A stretch of DNA of 64,000 nt from contig NZ_CP108569.1 in the NCBI RefSeq assembly GCF_036010505.1, forward strand, positions 2,048,001 to 2,112,000. The letters are read 5' to 3'. The position numbers were made by a program, and so were the translations under genes. Of the stretch, positions 19,386 to 24,791 are shown one piece after another. Every line of letters starts with the position of its first letter. Within the stretch, counting starts at the first letter, position 1. Origin of the DNA: Streptomyces sp. NBC_01197 (GTDB lineage: Bacteria; Actinomycetota; Actinomycetes; Streptomycetales; Streptomycetaceae). The notes under the pieces are model-generated. The model saw only the letters and a program-made list of their open reading frames with translations. It searched no databases and had not been told where the DNA came from.

Positions 19386-20753
19386 GTGGCCATATCGGTC
19401 TTCGACCTCTTCTCGGTCGGCATCGGCCCCTCCAGCTCCCACACGGTGGGCCCCATGCGGGCCGCCCGGATGTTCGCCGCCCGCCTGAAGAACGAGGGCC
19501 TGCTGGCCCACACCGGATCGGTCCGCGCCGAGCTCTTCGGCTCGCTGGGCGCGACGGGTCACGGACACGGCACCCCGAAGGCGGTGCTCCTCGGACTGGA
19601 GGGCGAGTCCCCCCGTACGGTCGACGTCGAGCACGCCGACGAGCGCATCGAGCAGATCCGCACCAGTGGCCGCCTCAGCGTCCTCGGTGCGCACGAGATC
19701 GCCTTCGACTACGACACGGACCTGGTCCTGCACCGTCGCAAGGCACTGCCGTACCACGCGAACGGGATGACGGTCTCCGCCTACGACACCGAGGGCGCCC
19801 CACTCCTCGAGAAGACGTACTACTCGGTGGGTGGCGGCTTCGTGGTGGACGAGGACGCAGTGGGCGAGGACCGCATCGTCCTCGACGACACCGTCCTGAA
19901 GCACCCCTTCCGCACGGGCGACGAATTGCTGCGGCTGACCCGGGAGACGGGTCTCTCCATCTCGGCGCTGATGCTGGAGAACGAGAAGGCGTGGCGCACC
20001 GAGGCGGAGATCCGCTCGGGGCTGCTGGACATCTGGGGCGTCATGCAGTCCTGCGTCGCCCGCGGCATGTCCCGCGAGGGCATCCTCCCCGGCGGCCTCA
20101 AGGTCCGCCGCCGCGCGGCCAACTCGGCCCGCCAGCTGCGCGCCGAGGGTGACCCCCTCGCCCGCGCCATGGAGTGGATCACGCTCTACGCGATGGCCGT
20201 GAACGAGGAGAACGCGGCCGGCGGCCGAGTCGTCACCGCCCCCACGAACGGCGCGGCCGGCATCATCCCCGCCGTCCTGCACTACTACATCAACTTCGTC
20301 CCGGGGGCTGACGAGGAAGGCATCGTCCGTTTCCTGCTCTCCGCGGGCGCCATCGGCATGCTCTTCAAGGAGAACGCCTCGATCTCCGGCGCCGAGGTCG
20401 GCTGCCAGGGCGAGGTCGGCTCCGCCTGCTCCATGGCGGCGGGCGCCCTGGCCGAGGTCCTGGGCGGCTCCCCCGAGCAGGTGGAGAACGCAGCGGAGAT
20501 CGGCATGGAGCACAACCTGGGCCTGACCTGCGACCCGGTCGGCGGCCTGGTCCAGATCCCCTGCATCGAGCGGAACGGCATGGCAGCGGTCAAGGCGGTC
20601 ACGGCGGCCAAGATGGCGATGCGCGGCGACGGCAGCCACAAGGTGTCCCTGGACAAGGTCATCAAGACGATGAAGGAGACCGGCGCCGACATGTCGGTCA
20701 AGTACAAGGAGACGGCGCGGGGCGGGCTCGCGGTGAACATCATCGAGTGCTAG
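19386..20753 (+). CDS. sdaA: L-serine ammonia-lyase (L-serine deaminase, Fe-S type)
   Basis: A 455-residue one-chain L-serine dehydratase that converts serine to pyruvate and ammonia with a labile 4Fe-4S cluster. It has the beta domain at the N-terminus ([25 protein letters not shown]) and the alpha domain after about residue 180. Cluster cysteines are in [12 protein letters not shown] and [14 protein letters not shown]. Start GTG 19386 with AAGGAG upstream. It follows gcvT-gcvH-glyA, forming a glycine-to-serine-to-pyruvate path. Its last 65 bp are repeated at 23830-23894 on the far side of an inserted segment; the copy here is intact. Confidence 0.96.
20685..20751 (+). repeat. left copy of the sdaA 3'-end direct repeat (attL-like)
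   Basis: The last 67 bp of sdaA before its stop codon. About 60 positions match the sequence at 23830-23894, including the perfect runs GGTCAAGTACAAGGAGACGG and, at the end, 25 bases through GAGTGCT. It marks the left edge of the insertion. Confidence 0.9.
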
Positions 20754-20975
20754 ACAGATGGGTCCTGACCAGCGCATTCATATCTTTCGGTGCTGTCAGT
20801 GCCTTCCCTGCTCACACAATGGAAAGTCCCTGAGATCTCCCTCGGACAGACGCGAAGGCCCTGAGAAGTCCCTGACGGGTTCCCCGCTGATGGGCGTCCG
20901 AGCTAGGAGTTCGCGGCGTCCGCGCGGTGATGGATGACTCGGACACGGCAGATCGAACCCATCACCCCCATCCAA

Positions 20976-20992
20976 TAACAAGAGTCTTGTTA
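20976..20992. promoter_or_regulatory. palindromic operator of the toxin-antitoxin operon
   Basis: TAACAAGAGTCTTGTTA: two perfect 8-bp arms around a single central G, ending 11 bp before the antitoxin start at 21004. It is AT-rich against a GC-rich background and overlaps where the -10 region would be. Ribbon-helix-helix antitoxins commonly repress their own operon through such palindromes. Confidence 0.75.
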
Positions 20993-21003
20993 AACTCTGC
21001 TCC

Positions 21004-21276
21004 ATGGCTATCTCCCCGGCGCCCGGTGAAGGACCCGTCCGGCCTGTATCGGTCTCACTCCACGAAGGCACCATCGCCGCCCTCAAAGCACGTACGGGCA
21101 AAAGAGGCATGTCCGCCTACGTCGAGTCGCTAGTCCAGCGCCAACTGGAACGGGACCGGCTGCGCGAACTCATCGAGGATGCGGAAGCCGAGCATGGTCG
21201 AGTCGACCAGTCGGCCGTCGATGCCAAACGTGCGATCCTCCGCGACGAGACGGCCGGCTCGGCGGACGCCGCGTGA
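21004..21276 (+). CDS. ribbon-helix-helix type antitoxin
   Basis: A 90-residue protein. Residues about 14-48 read as a ribbon-helix-helix unit: strand PVSVSLHEGTIAAL, then helices KARTGKRGMSAYVESLVQRQLERDRL in outline. The acidic C-terminal half (ELIEDAEAEHGRVD...) would wrap and neutralise the toxin. The stop overlaps the toxin start (GTGA at 21273-21276), the usual TA coupling. ATG start at 21004, 11 bp after the palindrome. Expected to repress its own operon with the toxin as co-repressor. Confidence 0.8.
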   Translation: MAISPAPGEGPVRPVSVSLHEGTIAALKARTGKRGMSAYVESLVQRQLERDRLRELIEDAEAEHGRVDQSAVDAKRAILRDETAGSADAA

Positions 21277-21665
21277 GCGGCACGCTCGTCCTGGACTGCG
21301 AAGGTCTGTCCAAACTGGTACGACGCACACCTGAGATCACCGAGTGGCTGACGGCAGCCGAAGCCGAAGACATCCGCGTCGTCACCAGCTCCGTCACCCT
21401 CGTCGAAGCACGCGACCCCAAAATCAACCAGGCCCGCTTCGACTACGCCGTCTCCCGAGTGAACATCATCCCGCCCAACGAAGCCATCGCCCGCCATGCA
21501 AGCAAGCTCCTGGCCACGGCCGGACTACACGGCCACAAGTACGCCCTCGACGCCATCGTGGCCGCCACCGCGCTCACCTCACCAGCCCCAGCGACCGTCC
21601 TGACATCGGATCCCGAAGACCTCCTGCTGCTCTGCGGCCCCCGCGTCCGCATCATCAAGGTCTGA
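21273..21665 (+). CDS. PIN-domain toxin (VapC-like ribonuclease)
   Basis: A 130-residue PIN-domain nuclease. Acidic residues are in place: Asp in LVLDCEGLSKL near residue 8, Glu in SSVTLVEARD near 45, Asp in HKYALDAIVAATAL near 93 and Asp in VLTSDPEDL near 112. PIN toxins of this class cleave tRNA or other RNA and are kept inactive by the cognate antitoxin. Start GTG 21273, coupled by a 4-bp overlap to the antitoxin. In an island this pair would help retain the element. The target RNA cannot be read from the sequence. Confidence 0.85.
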   Translation: MSGTLVLDCEGLSKLVRRTPEITEWLTAAEAEDIRVVTSSVTLVEARDPKINQARFDYAVSRVNIIPPNEAIARHASKLLATAGLHGHKYALDAIVAATALTSPAPATVLTSDPEDLLLLCGPRVRIIKV

Positions 21666-21669
21666 CCGT

Positions 21670-21852
21670 GAGGCCGCGGCCTCGACCCACCCCTTGCGCG
21701 GATCAGAGCGCCGCGTCGAAGGCCAGTGCCCAGCCGGTACGCAGCTCCTCATCAACATGTTCGTCAGCAATGGCCTTGCTGCCGCAAGCTTGCTGGTGAA
21801 CATCGTGGTCGCCTGGCGAGCAGCCCACCCCGTCACGCAAGATCGAGGCTAG
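21670..21852 (+). pseudogene. possible remnant of an interrupted reading frame
   Basis: Downstream of the toxin, a plus-strand frame stays open to a TAG at 21850-21852 and encodes a hydrophobic stretch (LLINMFVSNGLAAASLLVN) followed by VAWRAAHPVTQDRG. The same VTQDRG codons recur at 23729-23746, there continuing as VTQDRGQKSLENP before a stop. Joining the two copies would give one continuous C-terminus, so this could be the split end of a gene disrupted by the SDR/LysR segment. No start or homology is evident. Confidence 0.3.
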
Positions 21853-21853
21853 A
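21830..21853 (+). repeat. left 24-bp direct repeat bounding the SDR/LysR segment
   Basis: CCGTCACGCAAGATCGAGGC followed by TAGA. The same 20 bases followed by CAGA occur at 23727-23750, 1,897 bp away, giving 23 of 24 matches. The repeat overlaps the end of the SDR gene. Confidence 0.9.
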
Positions 21854-22595
21854 GTTGCGAAGCCCCTCCGTCGACAGGGAACTCCGTTCCCGTCGAGAAG
21901 GTCGCACCGAACGCCAAGTACGCCACCGCGGCAGCCACTTCCTCGGACGACCCCAGCCGCTGCATCGGAATGGTGCTCCGGTAGGTGTCCTTCGTCGCCT
22001 CGACGACATCGGCGGGCAGCGAGGAGCGGTCCAGGATGCCCGAGTCGATCGGGCCGGGGCTCACGGCATTGACGCGCACCTTGCGCGGCAGCAGCTCGCG
22101 GGCCAGGGTGCGCGTCATCGACCGCAGGGCTGCCTTGCTCGCCGAGTAGACACTGAGCGCGTCGAGGCCCAGGACGTTCACCACCGACGTGGTGAGCACC
22201 ACGCCGCTTCCCTCGCGCAACAGCGGCGCCAACGCCTGCACCGTGAAGTACGGGCCCTTGGCGTTGACGCCGAACAGCTCGTCGTACATCTCCTCCGTCG
22301 TCGAGTCGAACGGCGCGGACGCAGTGACGCCGGCGTTGACGAACAGCGCGTCCACTGCGCCGAACCGCTCCTGCACCGTGTCGGCCAGCGCCTTGATGTC
22401 CTTCAGGGACGCGGCGTCGCTTCGGACGGCGATCGCCTTGTTCCCCAACTGTTCCAACGCGGTGTCCAGGGAGGAACGGGTACGGCCTGTGATCAGTACG
22501 TGCGCCCCACCGTCCGCGAACAACTGGGCCGTAGACAGGCCGATACCGTTGCTTCCGCCCGTGATCACGATCTTCTTGCCGTCATAAGTGGTCAT
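21849..22595 (-). CDS. SDR-family NAD(P)-dependent oxidoreductase
   Basis: A 248-residue classical short-chain dehydrogenase. Cofactor motif TGGSNGIG near residue 12; NAG motif FVNAG near 86; catalytic Ser in TTSVVN near 139, and the Tyr-Lys pair in YSASK near 152-156; C-terminal TEFPVDGG is typical. An Arg in ITGRTR after the second strand suggests NADP(H) preference. ATG start 22595; GAGGG lies unusually close upstream. Divergent from the LysR-family gene 99 bp away, which probably controls it. Substrate unknown. The pair is bounded by 24-bp direct repeats within the island. Confidence 0.88.
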   Translation of the reverse strand: MTTYDGKKIVITGGSNGIGLSTAQLFADGGAHVLITGRTRSSLDTALEQLGNKAIAVRSDAASLKDIKALADTVQERFGAVDALFVNAGVTASAPFDSTTEEMYDELFGVNAKGPYFTVQALAPLLREGSGVVLTTSVVNVLGLDALSVYSASKAALRSMTRTLARELLPRKVRVNAVSPGPIDSGILDRSSLPADVVEATKDTYRSTIPMQRLGSSEEVAAAVAYLAFGATFSTGTEFPVDGGASQL

Positions 22596-22694
22596 GCCCT
22601 CAAGCCAAATACCCACCCGCGCACCATGTCCAAGACCTGTTCCGTATGCCGCCATGCCCCAGGCGTATGACGGCGCACGGCGTACCCTGAGCGA

Positions 22695-23597
22695 ATGGAC
22701 ATCGATCTGCGGCTCGTGCGCTATTTCACGGTCGTGGCGGAGTACGGCAACTTCGGTCGGGCCGCCACCAAGCTGCACCTGGCGCAGCCGTCGCTGAGCC
22801 GCCAGATCCAGCGACTGGAAGCCCAGCTCGGTGTCCGGCTTTTCGACCGCTCGCCGCAGGGCAGCAGCCTCACCGACGCCGGTCAGGCCTTTCTTCCCAG
22901 AGCCCGGATACTGCTCCACGAGGCCGAGCAAGCCGCTTACACGGCCAGAGCCGCCGTCCAGCCCCCTACCATCACTGTCGGCTGCGCCGAAGGACTGGTC
23001 ATCACCTCCTGCGTGCAGGAACTGCGCCGCCGGCACCCCGAAAGCCAGGTCCGCACCCGGCACTTGGACTGGCGGGACACGCACGCCCTCGCCGAGGGTC
23101 GGGTCGACGCCGTCATCGCATACAAACCCCTGCCCTTGCCCACGGACGGCCTCCGGGTGACCAAGCTCCATGTGGAGCCGCGGGTGCTCGTCACGTCGGC
23201 GAGCCATGATCTGGCGAACGAGAAACCCGTCAGCCTGCGGGCTCTGTCGGACCAGGAACTGGTGACCTGCGTCAGCACTCCGGTCGTCTGGAGCACGCCC
23301 AAGCCGGTCGGCGACCGACCTGCACCACCCCCGCCCGCAATCGACGACAGCTATGAGGACAAGCTGGAACTCATCGCCACCGGCCACTGTGTCGCGATCT
23401 TCCCTGCCAGCGATCGACGCGCCGCTATGCGTGAGGACATCGCCCTGGTGCCTGTCATCGACATCGATCCCTGCGAAGTCGTGCTCGTCACGCGCGCTGA
23501 CGACCCCAACCCGCTGCTCGGATCACTCGAAGACGTCGCACGCACAGTGCTCGGCACAGCCTCCCGCTGGGAGAACAACGAACTGCCGGTCCACTGA
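22695..23597 (+). CDS. LysR-family transcriptional regulator
   Basis: A 300-residue LysR regulator. The N-terminal winged helix-turn-helix (residues 1-60, FTVVAEYGNFGRAATKLHLAQPSLSRQIQRLE in outline) is followed by a linker helix and a periplasmic-binding-like effector domain from about 90 to 290. It starts at ATG 22695 and is divergent from the SDR gene, the standard layout for LysR control of a neighbouring operon. CGTATG words repeat in the 99-bp shared region (near 22645 and 22667), possible parts of its binding site. The effector is unknown, perhaps the SDR substrate. Confidence 0.9.
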   Translation: MDIDLRLVRYFTVVAEYGNFGRAATKLHLAQPSLSRQIQRLEAQLGVRLFDRSPQGSSLTDAGQAFLPRARILLHEAEQAAYTARAAVQPPTITVGCAEGLVITSCVQELRRRHPESQVRTRHLDWRDTHALAEGRVDAVIAYKPLPLPTDGLRVTKLHVEPRVLVTSASHDLANEKPVSLRALSDQELVTCVSTPVVWSTPKPVGDRPAPPPPAIDDSYEDKLELIATGHCVAIFPASDRRAAMREDIALVPVIDIDPCEVVLVTRADDPNPLLGSLEDVARTVLGTASRWENNELPVH

Positions 23598-23726
23598 CCC
23601 CCTGCCTCTGCGAGGTGTCATAGGGCTGTCGCCGCGCTGCCCTCGTCGGCCTGCACCAGCTGGACGATCAACGGCCCCCCGTTCCCGCCAGCGGAGCCAG
23701 CAGCAGCATCGCGCGCCGTCGGCGGA

Positions 23727-23750
23727 CCGTCACGCAAGATCGAGGCCAGA
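23727..23750 (+). repeat. right 24-bp direct repeat bounding the SDR/LysR segment
   Basis: Second copy of the repeat at 21830-21853 (23 of 24 bases). It is immediately followed by AAGTCCCTGGAAAATCCCTG, the right-hand TCCCTG motif. The 129 bp between the LysR stop and this repeat contains no gene. Confidence 0.9.
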
Positions 23751-23829
23751 AGTCCCTGGAAAATCCCTGAAGCGACGCAAAGCGTGCTTGTCGCCCCAGA
23801 ACCGCAGGTCAGAACGGCACCCGGATGCA

Positions 23830-23894
23830 GCCGACATATGGGTCAAGTACAAGGAGACGGCCGGGCGGCCTCGCGGTGAACATCATCGAGTGCT
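23830..23894 (+). repeat. right copy of the sdaA 3' end (attR-like)
   Basis: A 65-bp near-copy of sdaA codons just before its stop, with two single-base deletions and a few substitutions. The sdaA stop TAG is TGG here. It is not translated as SdaA. It overlaps the last four codons of the convergent gtrA-type gene, so the original junction was sdaA facing this gene. Confidence 0.9.
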
Positions 23895-24371
23895 GGGGGA
23901 CTCGTTCGAGGAGGCGGGGATCACCCGGAACACCCAGGTTCGGTACGACCAGAATCTGAAGAGGGTGGCGATTCCGATGCCGACGAACTTGAATACGTTG
24001 CTCTGCAGCGGGCTGTCCCAGCCGAAGCCGTAGGTCGCCAGATAGAGAACACCGTTCTCGATCACCAGGCCGATGGCGCTGAACAGCAGAAACAGTCCCA
24101 TCTCACGGGTGCAGCCGCTTTTGTCCCGGTCCCGGTAGGCGAAATATCTGAGCCCGGTGTAATTGAAGATGATCGAAACGACGGTGGCGATCACACTCGC
24201 GCTCACCACCGGTATCGAGGTCGTGTGGCGCACGAGATTGAACACCAGAAGATTGACCGCCACGCCGGACACGCCGACCGCTGCGAATTTCACGACCTCC
24301 CGCGTCTTCGGAGGCGGCGCTTTCGGAGACGGCGCCGCTGCTCGTACCGCTTGCTCACCTCTTACGGACAT
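23883..24371 (-). CDS. GtrA-like membrane protein
   Basis: A 162-residue protein with four predicted helices (about 33-55, 62-82, 100-120, 130-150) and the GtrA pattern KFAAVGVSGVAVNLLVFNLV at its first helix and FRFWSYRTWVF at the last. GtrA-family proteins are thought to flip polyprenyl-linked sugars across the membrane. Start ATG 24371 has AAGGAA eight bases upstream; the longer frame to 24683 is Pro/Ser-rich shadow. The last four residues lie in the duplicated sdaA 3' end, so its C-terminus may have been altered by the insertion. Confidence 0.82.
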   Translation of the reverse strand: MSVRGEQAVRAAAPSPKAPPPKTREVVKFAAVGVSGVAVNLLVFNLVRHTTSIPVVSASVIATVVSIIFNYTGLRYFAYRDRDKSGCTREMGLFLLFSAIGLVIENGVLYLATYGFGWDSPLQSNVFKFVGIGIATLFRFWSYRTWVFRVIPASSNESPSTR

Positions 24372-24791
24372 CGGCACAGTTCCTTCGGGGAGGGCCGGCG
24401 GGAGTCGATCGTCCTTCCACCCCAACGGCCACCGGCTTCCCACACCGGAGGCGTGGGGGCACGAGGGCGTGGAGCGTGGGTTCGATGGAGCAACCGGGCA
24501 CTCAGGCGCGCGGGCACCTGGCTGAGACGCGTGGCTGCTCGGAACCACTTGGCTGAGACGCGTGGCTGCTCGGAACCACTTGGTCGGGCGGGCCCGTACG
24601 GGGAGCCGTACGGAAGCGCCGTTGAAGGCCGACGGCGGCTTCGGTGTGGCGGAGGCTCCCCCGTGGGGGCTGCGCGACACCATCCCCTCCAGACTCCCAC
24701 CGGAGGTCGGCCTGTCAAGACGATCAAGAAGTGGGCGGATCAGGGCGGCCGCCGGGCCCCTGAAAAGCCTCGGGGCCCGTGCTTCCCGCCC
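24372..24791. other. 420-bp intergenic region with a tandem duplication
   Basis: No gene is supported; frames here are Pro/Arg-rich and lack ribosome sites. It contains the perfect 31-bp tandem duplication at 24520-24581 and the promoter of the gtrA-type gene. Otherwise I see only GC-rich sequence. Confidence 0.6.
24520..24581. repeat. perfect 31-bp tandem duplication
   Basis: Bases 24520-24550 and 24551-24581 are identical (unit begins GGCTGAGACGCGTGGCTGCT). Two copies only and no decay, so it is a recent duplication. Confidence 0.95.

Follow-up and report, generated by a model that had tools for sequence, protein, structure and literature searches.

The DNA studied here is a 64 000-nucleotide stretch of Streptomyces sp. 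NBC_01197 (contig NZ_CP108569.1, positions 2 048 001 to 2 112 000 of the forward strand), called the window below. It contains a 3.1-kb segment lying between two copies of the 3' end of sdaA, the L-serine dehydratase gene. This segment is probably an eroded member of a group of islands that insert site-specifically at the sdaA 3' end and carry no recombinase of their own; their recombination would most likely be carried out in trans by the tyrosine integrases of other elements using the same site. We infer, and favour, mobilization in trans because two kinds of element share the site, the arms and the core, and one of them is without recombinase domains. The window copy is also a relic, being itself eroded.

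Repeats, attachment arms and target gene in the window

The last 67 bp of sdaA (copy 1, 20685-20751, ending in the first base of the stop codon) recur beyond the segment at 23830-23894 (copy 2), with 91% identity over query bases 1-67 (BLASTN, E 8e-20 in its own genome). The original prediction, made from the letters of the window, had described this repeat as 65-67 bp long and about 90% identical; the length is given as a range because two ungapped blocks, of 94% each, sit 2 bp out of register. Copy 2 is eroded, with a 2-bp deletion and a stop codon that now reads TGG. It had been described as a dead copy overlapping a convergent gtrA-type gene. The overlap was found, and the rest of the description was revised: a plain dead sdaA fragment was ruled out by the attachment arm on its left side, and copy 2 is better named a right attachment site because the sequence adjoining it on the left is an attachment-site arm common to other elements. 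The terms attP, attL, attR, AICE (actinomycete integrative and conjugative element) and addiction are used in their general sense. The features of the locus are as follows.

19386..20753, + strand: sdaA, L-serine dehydratase, target gene, intact, stop TAG (open frame; SDH_alpha and SDH_beta; alignment with PDB 4rqo).
20685..20753, + strand: attL core, sdaA 3' end, a direct repeat; crossover likely in or near AAGTACAAGGAG (20700-20711).
20754..20875, + strand: attL arm, an inverted-repeat region followed by AAGTCCCTG-type repeats (83% to the arm of the G232 element; aligned by eye).
21004..21276, + strand: vapB-like antitoxin gene, 90 aa (homologues 84-93% identical in sdaA-linked loci).
21273..21665, + strand: vapC-like gene, PIN domain, 130 aa (PIN 28.6 bits, cut-off 23.6; homologues).
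21830..21853, + strand: 24-bp direct repeat, left copy, edge of the secondary SDR-LysR insertion.
21849..22595, - strand: SDR oxidoreductase gene, secondary cargo, missing from the colinear G384 element.
22695..23597, + strand: LysR-type regulator gene, secondary cargo, missing from the colinear G384 element.
23727..23750, + strand: 24-bp direct repeat, right copy.
23747..23829, + strand: attR arm of the non-coding type, with AGAAGTCCCTGGAAAATCCCTGA and CCGCAGGTCA sites (profile 40.3 bits; 82% to G384 over 23749-23895).
23830..23894, + strand: attR core, eroded second copy of the sdaA 3' end (direct repeat, BLASTN).
23883..24371, - strand: gtrA-type gene (GtrA/DPMS domain), convergent host flank, with its last codons inside the att copy.

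The segment encodes the VapB/VapC-like pair, the SDR protein and the LysR regulator. The pair is a predicted type II toxin-antitoxin system, on the basis of a PIN protein above cut-off and an upstream partner gene whose 90-aa product gave no match in Pfam or NCBIfam. As had been predicted, no recombinase gene was detected between the copies: none of the 12 Phage_integrase and none of the five Resolvase matches of this genome lies there. The int, tra and rep set that defines an AICE was not found among the genes of the segment, which are vapBC, SDR and LysR only. Conserved attachment sites and no recombinase gene, the combination expected of an integrase-less island mobilized in trans, were both found. 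The alignment of the attL arm with its G232 counterpart covers query bases 2-122 (E 3.8e-28), and the core AGT(A/T)CAAGGAG is common to the sdaA site and to the sites of related integrases in another gene. For the 24-bp repeat, the 19-base core was matched twice in the window, with 0.06 matches expected. Outside the segment, a 31-bp unit occurs twice in tandem (97%) at 24515-24576, upstream of the gtrA-type gene.

The intact state claimed for sdaA was borne out. Its frame is open and its product, an L-serine dehydratase of the iron-sulfur type, matched SDH_alpha and SDH_beta, both above their cut-offs. It aligns with PDB 4rqo down to its final cysteine; in the 4rqo enzyme this C-terminal cysteine is the fourth cluster ligand (passages of PMC12647591). 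The element would therefore have to bring back the codon of this cysteine. A tRNA target, already set aside in the original prediction, was rejected, since ARAGORN gave no tRNA in the window, nor in 20 stretches around the sites of relatives. A homogenised target, unusually conserved at synonymous sites, was also rejected: the last 22 codons of sdaA scored 0.813 and 22-codon stretches further upstream averaged 0.772 and reached 0.913 at most, in a test (53 of 69 sequences kept, 16 removed by an ungapped-similarity filter) that is biased because the sequences were picked for similarity at the sdaA 3' end.

Empty sites and two kinds of element at sdaA

Genomes of the same genus (392 searched, designated by G-numbers) all contain the sdaA 3' end. 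This first search scored at most two candidates per genome, so that more second copies may exist; the 105 genomes with two matches were searched again (47 + 58). A second copy was found downstream, on the same strand and within about 140 kb, in 42 of the 105, the window and G068 included; 40 of these loci were fetched and G068 was checked separately. With G055 and G096 left out, about 40 of the 392 genomes carry a downstream second copy. In a sample of 80 named loci, which overlaps the 392 genomes at least in part, the left arm directly follows sdaA in 15 and a second core lies within the stretch in two, one of them Streptomyces sp. 130, where the integrase is broken. A VapC relative follows sdaA in three of the 80. 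The sdaA stop is TAG in five of the 15 named loci with the arm versus two of the 65 without it (Fisher p 0.002, only a guide as the loci are related). This bias fits an exchange of strands before the stop codon, which would then arrive with the element.

Both outcomes that the original prediction had asked for in relatives were obtained: empty sites, and larger integrase-bearing elements at the same place. In G315, the sequence from the sdaA stop onward matches the DNA to the right of the G130 vapBC element at 92% over 549 bp, the empty site being nearly base-perfect. G335 shows the empty site that corresponds to the element of G007 (84%). The relative to set beside the window is G023, where the gtrA flank (86.7% identical over 490 bp) begins 118 bp past the sdaA stop and no arm intervenes. 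Hence about 116 bp were either lost from the window or gained by G023, and the gtrA-type gene of the window takes its last codons from the att copy. With the conserved arms on both sides and the larger integrase elements, these empty sites support the proposal of a site-specific integration that restores its target. G116, G141, G369 and G372 have tandem elements, and forms with joined ends lie at places other than sdaA in G040 (non-coding type) and G068 (integrase type). In these last two (L091 and L095, respectively), right arm, core and left arm follow one another at a position remote from sdaA, an order that joined ends or a tandem junction would produce. G023 also has, apart from its empty main sdaA site, a 151-kb stretch between sdaA 3'-end copies (1244341-1395968; L084, L083, L098, L104). 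It has a left arm at one end and, at the other, an integrase broken by one TGA; the sequence past its stop resembles a transposase gene by eye.

Two kinds of element occupy the site. They have the same arms and core, and they differ at the right end, which holds either a tyrosine integrase gene or a conserved non-coding block; the same left arm occurs with and without an integrase. Integrases were sought by a loose motif scan, a family profile and Pfam. A complete tyrosine integrase lies at the right end of the elements in G067 (137 kb; Pfam Phage_integrase), G337 (120 kb), G070 (109 kb) and G232 (54 kb). In all four, the integrase frame enters the sdaA copy in the frame of sdaA and ends at its stop, so that the integrase bears the C-terminus of SdaA. 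Shortened integrases with the same tail close the elements in G138, G340 and G068, and decayed ones occur in G044, G191 and G261. At 11.775 Mb in G068, integrase, core, stop and left arm follow one another in the order that an attP would show; the core has a small deletion. Relatives at E 1e-60 or better occur in at least 213 of the 392 genomes (maximum four candidates scored per genome); among the matches listed, the last residue of the 478-aa query was reached in 10 genomes. The SdaA C-terminus ends 61 of the 120 homologues listed out of 660, and is partial in three more; the tail is broken in three of these 64. The linker residues PEKSL and QV of the integrase are the translation of the DNA sites AAGTCCCTGAGAAGTCCCTG and GCAGGTC. 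Selection on the tail as a peptide was considered and found no support, the well-conserved residues between catalytic domain and tail being those that translate DNA sites. No known phage or plasmid with this integrase was found in the two collections searched, where all matching records were below 60% identity (505 of 505 and 34 of 34).

The elements without an integrase were recognized by their right end. A profile built from 14 other elements gave 40.3 bits for the window and 57.0 for the G130 element, against at most 30.8 for integrase-coding ends and 3.4 for the best of 500 shuffles. With a single non-coding right end as query, 14 of the 392 genomes matched. Inside 11 elements (10 fully spanned and the window) lie none of the 133 Phage_integrase (PF00589) and none of the 45 Resolvase (PF00239) matches of those 11 genomes; this covers these two families, and several proteins of the larger elements match nothing. 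The elements of G091 and G384 have room for little beyond a toxin-antitoxin pair. Near the left arm the cargo consists of AbiEi and AbiEii or of VapBC. Further cargo includes the Wadjet proteins JetA, JetC and JetD, CHAT and caspase proteins, STAND ATPases, RHS and HINT proteins and, in one element, biosynthetic genes. The cargo was surveyed on selected proteins, in a set of 31, in a set of 27 that also covered two elements of other types, and in a few single queries. The set of 31 gave matches to 22 Pfam families, none of them a family of conjugation or phage proteins.

The closest relative found for the window element is a 1.7-kb sdaA-vapBC element in G384. The two are colinear, with 90% identity in the left arm and vapBC, 96% in 82 bp further on and 82% at the right end. 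The SDR-LysR pair is a later insertion, because it is missing from the G384 element and bounded by the 24-bp direct repeat in the window. Pairs of this vapBC kind are found no more than about 2.5 kb from sdaA in seven other genomes (G384, G130, G094, G072, G343, G032 and G187) and about 18 kb off in G104; the right end was not found for some sdaA-linked vapBC loci of other genomes.

Origin and mobility of the window segment

According to the favoured reading, the island would supply its own copy of the last sdaA codons and of the stop, and because of this supply sdaA would stay whole, including the C-terminal cysteine codon. Tyrosine integrases of other elements at the same site, whose genes adjoin the same kind of arm sites, would bind the arms and act on the island in trans. 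Since the 3' end of the integrase gene contains the attachment site, read in the frame of sdaA, integrase and SdaA would swap C-terminal tails at each integration. VapBC would be the core of the island, presumably kept by addiction, and the SDR-LysR pair would have joined it later. Mobility is supported by the empty sites, the tandem elements, the differing cargo, the joined-end forms of G040 and G068, and AbiEi, which is closer than sdaA in eight of 15 pairs (G311 versus G252: 94.6% against 88.0%).

Several points weigh against this reading. The window falls below the threshold of the single-query search for the right end, and its profile score exceeds that of integrase-coding right ends by a modest gap (40.3 versus 30.8 bits). 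Its attR is damaged. The vapBC genes are closer than sdaA in just seven of 36 pairs. Among the integrase matches of this genome there was none with an SdaA tail, and the alignment of the best relative (43% identity) ended at query residue 422. A non-coding right end was counted in 18 genomes (the 14 plus G151, G263, G283 and that of the window), of which only G068 also has an SdaA-tail integrase among the matches listed, as one fragment and one nearly full-length copy with a damaged tail. What the sequences show are the repeats, the arms, the empty sites, the in-frame tail and the absence of recombinase domains; movement itself is deduced from them.

The original prediction had left a choice between mobilization in trans and a stripped remnant. 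The right-end scores and the 10 further elements without recombinase domains lean to the integrase-less type, and the remnant stands insofar as the window copy is eroded. That the segment is instead a decayed autonomous element, deprived of its right-end integrase by deletion, is unlikely. The site has many decayed integrases and eroded att copies (G044, G261, G191 and G089), the AAGTCCCTG and GCAGGTCA sites are common to both kinds of right end, and such decay is described for AICEs (passages of PMC9513070). However, the right end of the window is closer to the non-coding type than to any integrase-coding one, the window is colinear with the G384 element, and the presence of one non-coding block in 14 other elements is not expected from independent losses.

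Vertical inheritance of old integrase-less elements, with ends kept by descent and empty sites produced by loss, appears quite improbable. It would fit the single chromosomal site and the 29 of 36 pairs in which vapBC is not closer than sdaA, but the cargo varies widely among elements, the AbiEi pairs given above point the other way, and ends of the same type occur away from sdaA in G040 and G068. That ordinary recombination or repair duplicated the sdaA end as a segment, with no integration, is scarcely credible, since the repeat, in the window as in most spanned loci, goes no further than the core and is flanked on both sides by conserved arms, even if the second copies of G055 and G096 do reach further into sdaA. 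In these two genomes (L034 and L035), the second copy takes in more of sdaA than the core, as another kind of duplication.

Other targets, known systems and significance

The integrase family also serves other genes. Members of 423-444 aa sit at the 3' end of a gene of the 3-hydroxyacyl-CoA dehydrogenase family (Pfam, one locus), where the core is AGTACAAGGAG or AGTTCAAGGAG with the same kind of arms. These integrase genes stop before the core, and therefore in-frame tail capture is not universal. Relatives with the same arms (L117-L136) also use a site with the core CAGAACCCGGCGTACAGCCCGACTCGTCTGCC, which is not a tRNA according to ARAGORN. Another tail, MN-x-QFK-(K/R)-(V/I)-(D/N)F, ends seven of the 120 listed homologues, three from Kitasatospora and one from Streptomyces among them (P0094, P0101, P0102, P0105, P0107, P0115 and P0117; L105-L116). 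For six of the seven, a match was found in related genera, namely the C-terminal end of a small conserved protein that contains a hydrophobic stretch. This protein gave no family match in Pfam or NCBIfam; the target was not found in this genome and was found in the wider family. In-frame tail capture thus appears to occur for at least two targets, the second resting on protein tails and sdaA on mapped islands.

Likenesses were found with several known systems. PAISt of Streptomyces turgidiscabies also sits at the 3' end of a protein-coding gene, bacA; it differs by this target with its 8-bp palindrome and by its size of hundreds of kb (passages of PMC4057263). Like an island of that kind, the window has a repeat of the target 3' end with a whole target and an empty site in relatives (G023 differing by about 116 bp at the junction). 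An integrase within the element is absent from the window segment and present in other elements at the sdaA site. The microcin H47 island of E. coli is likewise small, repeat-flanked and without integrase, and excises with functions from the host background; its site and repeats are different, and excision was established there by experiment, while here it is deduced (passages of PMC3191183). AICEs and decayed AICEs of Streptomyces similarly show insertion hotspots, accretion, and decay leaving direct repeats and cargo; their sites comprise 36 tRNA, 14 protein-coding and one intergenic, and sdaA is not named in these passages (PMC9513070). The window segment differs in having no tra or rep gene. 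In mycobacteriophage BPs, attP lies in the repressor gene, so that integration alters the C-terminus of an element-encoded protein; the repressor is shortened there, whereas here the integrase keeps its frame and gains the C-terminal codons of the target (PMC4557955). A literature search on gene and enzyme names with integration terms and on integrase C-termini, with most subscription papers outside it, gave no report of sdaA as an integration site, nor of an integrase ending in the C-terminus of its target.

A wider picture is put forward tentatively, with somewhat less than even confidence. In Streptomyces-type genomes, sdaA may host a family of integrase parasites. These would be small islands for defence or toxin-antitoxin functions, reduced to attachment arms in their mobility and depending for movement on tyrosine integrases whose C-terminus is that of the target protein, the tails being swapped at each integration. 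Capture would have arisen for at least two target genes, sdaA and that of the small conserved protein of related genera, and would make the integrase tail a barcode of the target. The sdaA 3' end is an insertion hotspot that the literature search did not turn up. The genus is known for its antibiotics, the cargo includes defence and toxin-antitoxin genes, and the site offers a test case for islands without a recombinase yet with intact-looking ends. In part of this integrase family, the target gene is readable from the last 20 or so residues, which would aid the finding of attachment sites and the design of site-specific vectors.

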